From the NCBI RefSeq assembly GCF_013387455.1, contig NZ_VWNC01000001.1:434001-498000 (forward strand): a stretch of DNA of 64,000 bases, in the 5' to 3' direction. The notes under the pieces are model-generated. The model did not search any database and was not told the DNA's origin. It worked only from the letters and a program-made list of their open reading frames with translations. The DNA comes from Mariprofundus sp. NF. GTDB lineage: Bacteria; Pseudomonadota; Zetaproteobacteria; Mariprofundales; Mariprofundaceae. Positions 30,238-41,611 of this stretch are shown in pieces (positions within the stretch are counted from its first letter, which is position 1; each line of letters opens with the position of its first letter). A program made the position numbers and the translations under genes.

Positions 30238-30552
30238 AACAACGCACTGAATTTTCCGACCATTCCTGTTATCTCACTTTAGAGAGACACATGATCTGTT
30301 ATCTCACTTTAGAGAGACACATGATCTGTTTCTCATCTGTCTGCTCCTGCCATCGTTACTTGGGCTATGAGCAGGTGGCTTGTTCTTAAGTGAATATCTT
30401 ATCTCCAAATGGTATCTCTACCTATTACGCGCCTGTTTTCCTGTGGATATATTTCTGCATCTACGGGGGCATTGAACCAATACATCGGTCTGTTCTCGTA
30501 ACTCAGGTTGCGAAAAACGGCAATCTGAAGCGCTGCTTCCAGGGGGGAAACA
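30238..30552 (+). other. Intergenic region with a 30-bp tandem duplication
   Basis: This 315-base stretch contains a 30-bp unit repeated twice (30267-30330). A 60-codon frame at 30390-30572 has no ribosome binding site and no family features, so no gene is called there. The downstream end carries the strong ribosome binding site of the small ORF at 30553. Confidence 0.6.
30267..30330 (+). repeat. 30-bp tandem direct repeat, two copies plus four bases
   Basis: The unit starting TGTTATCTCACTTTAGAGAG is present twice without mismatch, followed by the first four bases of a third copy. Each unit contains TCTC-N6-GAGA, a small self-complementary segment. The identical copies imply a recent duplication or a maintained regulatory repeat. 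Confidence 0.9.
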
Positions 30553-38748: not shown

Positions 38749-39435
38749 GTGAGCCAGTGGCAATTGATACCGGGTCTGCAGCTTGCCCTTGATGGACCGT
38801 CGGGTTCAGGCAAAGGTACGGTTGCCAAAATGGTGGCTGAAGAGCTCGGCTTGCCGGTGCTTGATACCGGACTACTCTATCGCCTGATTGGTGGCCTTGC
38901 ACTGCAGCGCACTGTTGCGCTGGATGATGAGCAGGCGCTGGTGGCATTGGTGGAAGAGATGCTGCAAAAGGTGGCGTGGACGGTAGATGGCATCTCTTTT
39001 GATGGTGAGAACTGGACTGGTCGCCTGCGCAGTGAAGCGGTTGGTAATGCGGCTTCAACGGTGGCAGCTCTGCAGCCGGTACGTGATTTGCTGCTCGGGT
39101 TGCAGCGGAAAATCGCCGAATCCGGTTGTGTGATGGACGGGCGAGACGTGGGTACGGTTGTACTTCCCAATGCACAGGCGAAGTTCTTTTTGACCGCTTC
39201 TGTGCGTGAGCGGGCGCGGCGGCGCTGGGCACAATTGAAAGATGATGGTGGAAGCTCTCTTGAGGCGGTGATTGATGAGCTTAAAGTGCGTGACCAACGC
39301 GATAGAGAGCGTCAGCATGCACCACTTAGGCAGGCTGATGATGCGATTGTCATCGACTCGACAACCATGCGGGTGGATGAGGTGGTAGATCGGATGCTGG
39401 GGGTTCTGGAGCGGCGAGGTTTGATCCGCTCCTGA
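38749..39435 (+). CDS. cmk: Cytidylate kinase
   Basis: A 228-residue nucleoside monophosphate kinase that phosphorylates CMP and dCMP. The P-loop is D-G-P-S-G-S-G-K-G-T (residues 15-24); L-D-T-G-L-L-Y-R, M-D-G-R-D-V-G-T-V and R-D-Q-R-D-R-E-R form the NMP-binding and LID parts. GTG 38749 is 3 bases after aroA. It precedes rpsA as in many proteobacteria. Confidence 0.94.
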   Translation: MSQWQLIPGLQLALDGPSGSGKGTVAKMVAEELGLPVLDTGLLYRLIGGLALQRTVALDDEQALVALVEEMLQKVAWTVDGISFDGENWTGRLRSEAVGNAASTVAALQPVRDLLLGLQRKIAESGCVMDGRDVGTVVLPNAQAKFFLTASVRERARRRWAQLKDDGGSSLEAVIDELKVRDQRDRERQHAPLRQADDAIVIDSTTMRVDEVVDRMLGVLERRGLIRS

Positions 39436-39498
39436 AATGGAAAACGAACACAATACTGAATAACAATTCGAATGAATTGAACTAGGATGGATAACGAC

Positions 39499-41322
39499 AT
39501 GAGTGAAGCCAAAACATTGGAAGTAGCAGCTGAAGTAGCTGAAGTAGCTGAAGTAGCTGAAGTAGCTGAAGTAGCTGAAGTAGCTGAAGTGGCTGAAGTG
39601 GCTGAAGTGGCTGAAGTGGCTGAAGTGGCTGAAGTGGCTGAAGATGAAAATGAAGAAGAGTCATTCAAGCAGATGTTTGAGGCTTCACTGAAAGAGCATC
39701 CTGAGGTTCGCCGTGGTGAGATGGTCAACGGCATGGTCGTAAGCATCAATTCTGATGCTGTGATTATGGATGTGGGGGCCAAGAATGAAGGTTCGATTCC
39801 GTTAGCTGAATTTTCCGAGGCTGGTCTGGAACTGCCTGCCGTTGGCGATATGATCAACGCCATGGTGCAGTCGGCTAGTGGTTCAGCTGGTGTAAAACTC
39901 TCCGTGCTCTCGGCAAGAAAGATCGAAGCATGGGTTGCAATTGAAGCGGCAGCAGCCAGTGGTGAAGCGATCGATGCAGTGATTACTGCCGAGATAAAAG
40001 GTGGCTTCCGTGTTAATCTGAACGGCCTCTCTGCATTCATGCCGCGCTCCGAAGCTGATACCGATATGCATGTTAATTCCGAAGCACTTGTGGGTCAGGC
40101 TTGTAAAGTCGCTGTACTTGAGGCTCGTCGTAAACCTGAGAATGTTGTGGTCTCCCGCAAGAAGCCGATGGCTGTTGAGGTTGAAGCACAGCGTGAGAAG
40201 TTTTTCGAAGGCAAAGCGGTTGGTGACAAGCTCTCCGGTGTTGTTCGTCGAATGACCGATTTTGGTGCATTTATTGATCTGGGTGGCGTTGATGCGCTGC
40301 TGCATGTCTCTGATATATCATGGCGTCGTATCCAGAAACCTTCTGAGATGCTCACTGTTGGCCAGAGTGTAACTGTTGAAATTGTTAAGCTGAATGCCGA
40401 AACCGGTAAAGTATCTGTATCGATGAAAGCGCTGCAGTCTGATCCGTGGGAGAGCGTGGCAAACACCTATGAAACAGGTATGCGCCTGACAGGCACTGTG
40501 CGCCGTCTTCTCGATTTCGGCGCAGTGATCGAACTTGAGCCCGGCATTGAAGGCATGATTCACCGCTCTGAACTGAGCTGGACCAAGAAAGATGTCAAGC
40601 CTGCCCAGGTTCTCGCTGAAGGCGATGTGGTTGATGTGGCAGTACTGGAAGTGGATGCGGATGCACGTCGTATTCGTCTGAGTCTGAAAGCTGTAAGTGA
40701 CAATCCGTGGCAGAGCTGGTTGGCTGATAATCCGATCGGTTCTCATGTAAAGGGTAAGATCAAGAATGTTACCGATTTCGGTTTCTTTGTGCCGGTGGGC
40801 TCTGATCTTGATGGTCTGGTACATATGGAGAATCTCTCTTGGGAGAAACGTGGTTCCGAGGCGCTGGCGGATTTCAGTAAAGGTCAGGAAGTCGAGTGTG
40901 TTGTGTTGGGTGTGGATGTTGAGAAGCAGCGTATTGCGCTGGGTATCAAACAGCTCTCAAGTGATCCTTTTGAGCTCTTCCTTGAAAATGTAAAACGTGG
41001 TGACAGCGTCAATGGTAAAGTCCTTGAGATTAAACCAAGCGGTGCGGTTATATCACTAACCGAGCATGTGACTGCATACCTGCCCAAGCGTGAAATCCCG
41101 CGTGATCATGCAGAGCTGAAAGAGGGAAGTGAGATCGAGGCGAAAGTGATTGAAGTCAATCGCAAACGCAGGCAGGTGGATCTCTCCATCAGTCAGCAGA
41201 TTCGTGATGAAGAGCGTGACGCCATGCGCAACTATTCACAACAGGCTGCCAGCAACTCAGCACCTTCAGCGCTGGCGCTGGAGCTGCAGCGTAAACTGTT
41301 GGGTAAAATTGACACAAAATAA
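39499..41322 (+). CDS. rpsA: 30S ribosomal protein S1 with N-terminal AEV repeat extension
   Basis: A protein of about 607 residues with six S1 (OB-fold) domains, recognisable by G-M-V-V-S-I-N-S-D, A-V-I-T-A-E-I-K-G-G-F, G-V-V-R-R-M-T-D-F-G-A-F, G-T-V-R-R-L-L-D-F-G-A-V, G-K-I-K-N-V-T-D-F-G-F-F and G-K-V-L-E-I-K-P-S-G. S1 binds mRNA on the 30S subunit. The N-terminus carries twelve tandem Ala-Glu-Val units (39529-39636) and an acidic D-E-N-E-E-E before domain 1, making it about 50 residues longer than usual. The start may be ATG 39487 or 39499; 39499 is preferred because AGGA at 39484-39487 would be too close to the first. Confidence 0.95.
   Translation: MSEAKTLEVAAEVAEVAEVAEVAEVAEVAEVAEVAEVAEVAEVAEVAEDENEEESFKQMFEASLKEHPEVRRGEMVNGMVVSINSDAVIMDVGAKNEGSIPLAEFSEAGLELPAVGDMINAMVQSASGSAGVKLSVLSARKIEAWVAIEAAAASGEAIDAVITAEIKGGFRVNLNGLSAFMPRSEADTDMHVNSEALVGQACKVAVLEARRKPENVVVSRKKPMAVEVEAQREKFFEGKAVGDKLSGVVRRMTDFGAFIDLGGVDALLHVSDISWRRIQKPSEMLTVGQSVTVEIVKLNAETGKVSVSMKALQSDPWESVANTYETGMRLTGTVRRLLDFGAVIELEPGIEGMIHRSELSWTKKDVKPAQVLAEGDVVDVAVLEVDADARRIRLSLKAVSDNPWQSWLADNPIGSHVKGKIKNVTDFGFFVPVGSDLDGLVHMENLSWEKRGSEALADFSKGQEVECVVLGVDVEKQRIALGIKQLSSDPFELFLENVKRGDSVNGKVLEIKPSGAVISLTEHVTAYLPKREIPRDHAELKEGSEIEAKVIEVNRKRRQVDLSISQQIRDEERDAMRNYSQQAASNSAPSALALELQRKLLGKIDTK
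39529..39636 (+). repeat. 9-bp tandem repeat, twelve units, encoding Ala-Glu-Val in S1
   Basis: The unit GCTGAAGTN occurs twelve times in a row and in frame. The first six units end in GTA and the last six in GTG, so the array grew from two variant units. A partial GCTGAA follows. Each unit adds one A-E-V tripeptide. Confidence 0.97.
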
Positions 41323-41358
41323 GATTGGGGGCCTGCTAACACTAATTTAGGTACTGGC

Positions 41359-41458
41359 GCTGCTGCTCCAAATGAGGCCAATCAAGGCGCGAGGAATGAA
41401 GTTTGGTGATTCCAAATGAATTCTGAGCAACGCTGAGTGGCCTCATTTGAAGCGCAGC
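41359..41458 (+). repeat. Imperfect inverted repeat, possible MITE or structured RNA element
   Basis: The left arm (41359-41380) contains AAATGAGGCCA, matched exactly by TGGCCTCATTT in the right arm (41438-41458). With one mismatch and one small gap the pairing extends to about 21 bases through GCTGC-type sequence. The 57-base interior also has partial self-complementarity. A short GCCT...AGGC stem and a T6 run follow (to about 41481), which could end rpsA transcription. Confidence 0.7.
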
Positions 41459-41611
41459 CTTTCAGGATAGGCCATTTTTTCCGTCCTGCTGCGTTATTGC
41501 AGGCTTATGTGCACCAAGCACACAGCGCCTGCTCTGCCTTGCAGGGACACAAAAAATGACCGTATCGCCAGCATCAAAATTAGTTTTAACAGGCCCAGAC
41601 AAAAGCGAAAC

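Follow-up and report, generated by a model that had tools for sequence, protein, structure and literature searches.

How did a perfect tandem repeat come to lie inside the gene for ribosomal protein S1 in Mariprofundus sp. NF, an iron-oxidising bacterium of the class Zetaproteobacteria, and does it have a role there? In E. coli, S1 is termed an essential ribosomal protein, and it binds the 30S subunit via S2, with its N-terminal domain D1 binding the coiled coil of S2 (PMC3296737). The initial annotation of this locus had described twelve Ala-Glu-Val (AEV) units in the S1 gene, six GTA-ending units followed by six GTG-ending ones, and this description proved exact. The host genome (2.53 Mb) is assembled in 24 contigs, and the array lies within a 594-kb contig. 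Positions given below refer to the window, which is the whole stretch of 64,000 nucleotides that was analysed, and the features concerned are the following:

38749–39435, + strand, cytidylate-kinase-like ORF (cmk) upstream of rpsA, judged by eye from sequence
39448–39498, + strand, strongly conserved rpsA leader with a hairpin CAATTC/GAATTG (39464–39479) and a GGATGG motif
39499–41322, + strand, rpsA, ribosomal protein S1, 607 aa (MSEAK start)
39499–39651, + strand, acidic low-complexity N-terminal tail of S1 (residues 1–51), containing the array
39520–39528, + strand, degenerate permuted unit GAAGTAGCA (Glu-Val-Ala)
39529–39636, + strand, array (GCTGAAGTA)6(GCTGAAGTG)6, encoding (Ala-Glu-Val)12, from TRF and unit counting
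39652–39693, + strand, conserved N-terminal helix (residues 52–65), counterpart of the S2-docking helix of E. coli S1

The S1 gene and its leader

The assignment of the gene as rpsA is based on its match to NCBIfam NF004952 (554 bits, the cut-off being 524), on PF00575 S1 domains and on the six OB domains predicted by AlphaFold2. The longest ORF starts at ATG 39487, but this start is disfavoured, as the codon is part of the conserved GGATGG motif, which reads GGACGG in several relatives. Since these relatives have ACG in place of ATG 39487, the sequence comparison indicates ATG 39499 as the most likely start of S1 translation. The leader, ACACAATACTGAATAACAATTC...GAATTGA...GGATGG, is kept with small changes in 16 aligned genomes. 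Its hairpin is nearly invariant in the genus (97.9% of aligned cells pair, with one double change), and the exact core motif has a single occurrence in the genome. An Rfam search around rpsA matched no family. From its sequence, the leader is a candidate S1 autoregulation site or DNA element. Directly 3′ of rpsA, at 41329–41596, lies an element of ∼270 bp with imperfect terminal inverted repeats (31 nt, 84%), which has seven further matches in the genome, four of them near full-length at 76–85% identity, and which looks like a MITE-type element.

A two-block array of 9-bp units

The array near the 5′ end of rpsA comprises exactly 12 perfect 9-bp units, all in frame. With A standing for GCTGAAGTA and G for GCTGAAGTG, its structure is A6G6, and its final bases are AAAAAAGGGGGG. 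Twelve perfect units in one array are far more than chance gives, and the two-block order is improbable if six A and six G units are placed at random (exact runs test, p = 0.002). The corresponding TRF call (39528–39643, period 9, 12.9 copies, 99% matches) is the top-scoring array within the window, and its surplus 0.9 copy is flanking sequence (GCTGAA 3′ of the array). The degenerate unit that precedes the array, of which Mariprofundus sp. KV also has one, is a possible seed.

The repeat background was scanned in 464 kb, consisting of the window and 400 kb of other stretches of the same genome, and tandem arrays scoring 50 or more were found in about a dozen places. In-frame arrays in low-complexity gene parts are present in infB (RPGDRPQGQ type), a yajC-like ORF (AKPA), a SPOR-like ORF (KVETA) and a FliK-like ORF (57 bp), all of which were named by eye. 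Among the 464 kb scanned, the S1 array is distinctive by its purity and host gene, not by its score. The N-terminal part of the infB gene (IF-2; L130, 16160–19204, − strand) contains in-frame repeats of 39 bp, RPGDRPQGQRPQG, and a 30-bp tandem repeat with 2.4 copies, CTGTTATCTCACTTTAGAGAGACACATGAT, is located at 30266–30335 of the window.

A dispersed repeat was rejected as the nature of the array, which within the genus Mariprofundus is confined to S1, in three genomes. G023, a Zetaproteobacterium of another genus, has AEV arrays, (GCCGAAGTA)n, in an unrelated GTPase-like gene (L100 1597–1768 and L101 1–117). They are encoded mostly with GCC codons, are the sole AEV case met outside S1 in the class, and were taken as convergent. 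Two contigs end inside them, and the G023 assembly probably broke at these arrays. In G001, a relative within the genus, 24 one-strand matches to the reversed control pattern suggest that a further long array of 9-bp units is present.

The array lies in an acidic, predicted disordered tail

The 51-residue tail that contains the array has a net charge of about −19 (measured up to the docking motif). In the AlphaFold2 model, which was built from an alignment of 19 rows only and in which low pLDDT serves as a proxy for disorder, residues 1–50 have pLDDT values under 50, mostly about 26–32, and lack secondary structure. The tail thus has the biased composition, predicted disorder and terminal position of a ribosomal-protein low-complexity region. 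Tails measured in 32 Zetaproteobacteria S1 proteins comprise 12–125 aa ahead of the ESFKQMFEASLKE motif or its equivalent, and every one of the 32 is net-negative (range −4 to −29); a single aromatic or Cys residue is found in the 29 tails scored. In 20 genomes from other classes, the stretch before the helix is mostly short (from 2 up to some 30 residues in cases with a visible start, some starts being uncertain). The array therefore occupies a non-conserved segment whose variability and acidity extend across the class, and the initial suggestion that a conserved part of S1 is affected is not supported. The few papers brought up by the literature searches do not describe an acidic tail of this kind, shared by a whole class, in front of the S2-docking helix.

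The model also predicts a helix at residues 52–65 and six OB-like sets of strands, and phmmer matched the protein to 4toi, an S2–S1 fusion structure that includes the N-terminal helix of E. coli S1 (E = 2.9e-11), and to 6h4n. With six tandem S1/OB domains and an N-terminal S2-docking helix, the protein is a six-domain bS1. The array ends only 15 nt before the docking-helix codons, and this proximity gives some ground for the idea, put forward in the initial annotation, that the acidic extension alters docking on the 30S subunit, with docking changing as a function of repeat number. However, the helix (EESFKQMFEASLKE) is conserved and predicted to be intact, and the same helix is found in relatives that lack the array or have quite different tails. 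Because the docking helix is intact, the proposal is unsupported and we regard such an effect as very unlikely.

Copy number in related species

Mariprofundus sp. NF belongs to a four-species clade (support 100/99) in which, with one genome compared per species so that differences are between species, the array has 12 units in NF, 18 in KV, 22 in G011 and none in G007. The order of the blocks also differs: A6G6 in NF, G4A3G3A8 in KV and A1G21 in G011, where one unit contains GCC. The variation in repeat number that the initial annotation anticipated is thus present among related species. When the arrays are pooled, Ala is encoded by GCT in 51 of 52 units and Glu by GAA in all 52; in the core of NF rpsA, these codons account for 16 of 55 Ala and 27 of 55 Glu residues. 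The NF and KV proteins are 94% identical (query residues 59–611), with a dS of about 0.62 in the rpsA core, and dS exceeds 1.3 in the other pairs. As the units are near-uniform while the gene cores have diverged, the units are either much younger than the species or homogenised by exchange, in agreement with the young, frame-preserving expansion that had been proposed at the outset. The tree, which gives no firm branching order inside the clade, is compatible with a single gain followed by a loss in G007 as well as with two independent gains.

An error of assembly would be another source of apparent copy-number differences, and the fragmentation of the NF genome, together with the two G023 contigs that end inside such an array, shows why it has to be considered. 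However, the array is short (108 bp) and internal to its large contig, and two further assemblies have arrays at the corresponding site. One of these two, G011, is a single contig, as is the G007 assembly, and the presence of 22 units in G011 indicates that the array is not an obvious artefact. We consider an artefactual copy number extremely improbable.

Origin and possible roles of the array

The array is probably a frame-preserving minisatellite that expanded recently within the disordered acidic tail at the N-terminus of S1, with near-neutral turnover of its units. Replication slippage or unequal exchange would add and remove units of 9 bp. Mismatch repair usually corrects loops smaller than 9 nt. 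A 9-nt loop would be beyond this usual range, and each step keeps the frame, the acidity and the disorder, so a change of copy number would be nearly neutral. The tail would extend freely in front of the S2-docking helix, acting at most as a solvent-exposed acidic tether, and no switch or regulatory role would be required to account for the array. DNA hairpins were rejected as drivers of the expansion, as single-strand DNA folding is no better than that of shuffles (z −0.4 and −1.0). Weak selection could be an alternative account of the retention of the array in three species.

Roles at the level of protein or mRNA were weighed against this reading. As has been described for acidic tails in certain other proteins that bind RNA or DNA, the S1 tail might be a selected autoinhibitory or tuning element, the tail and RNA competing for the OB domains and repeat number tuning S1. 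The negative charge of all 32 tails measured, although their sequence is free, suggests that composition is constrained. Against this, the wide range of tail lengths in one class, and of unit numbers in one clade, indicates that no length is held, and Ala/Glu-rich composition is common in low-complexity segments of ribosomal proteins (PMC6821194); we therefore judge such a role unlikely. A broader version, in which the class-wide tail would be a selected disordered shield or tuner of the RNA-binding domains and one Mariprofundus clade would evolve its length fast by slippage, giving a heritable dial for translation, is speculative and quite improbable. It is also most doubtful that the array acts in the mRNA, as a regular hairpin immediately downstream of the start codon that tunes S1 synthesis. 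The 5′ region does fold better than shuffles (z −4.2), but this is expected from the repeated AGCU palindrome (AGCT in the DNA); moreover, G007 lacks any array, and the conserved regulatory candidate is the upstream leader.

In summary, the near-neutral minisatellite reading describes a real and fairly ordinary expansion of a repeat within an essential gene, in a part that tolerates it. An essential ribosomal protein thus tolerates the fast expansion of a repeat located in a disordered tail, and the array offers a length marker that is easy to score in one Mariprofundus clade.

Comparison with known systems

Low-complexity segments rich in Ala and Glu occur commonly among bacterial ribosomal proteins, with slippage named as one source, and IF-2 heads the list of bacterial proteins richest in low-complexity regions (PMC6821194). 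The S1 array resembles these cases in being Ala- and Glu-rich and terminal and in belonging to an abundant translation protein, and IF-2 has repeats here too. It differs from them in that they are mostly C-terminal, whereas the S1 array is N-terminal and is a perfect tandem array at the DNA level with species-specific copy number. In the literature searched, which covers few subscription journals, no paper on point was found for a tandem array, repeats or N-terminal extensions in S1.

The array qualifies as a coding minisatellite (VNTR), as its near-identical units are arranged head-to-tail, the frame is kept and copy number is unequal among related lineages (between species). It shares with bacterial coding VNTR loci a unit that is a multiple of 3, uniform blocks and a number that varies between lineages; the variation of the S1 array is seen between species, and it has no known role in phase variation. 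It is not a phase-variable contingency locus, in which repeats switch a gene on or off, because the gain or loss of 9-bp units never shifts the frame. With E. coli bS1, the protein shares the same docking helix and six S1 domains. However, E. coli-like S1 proteins begin almost at the helix (MTENF/MSESF), whereas in Mariprofundus sp. NF the 51-residue acidic tail comes first.
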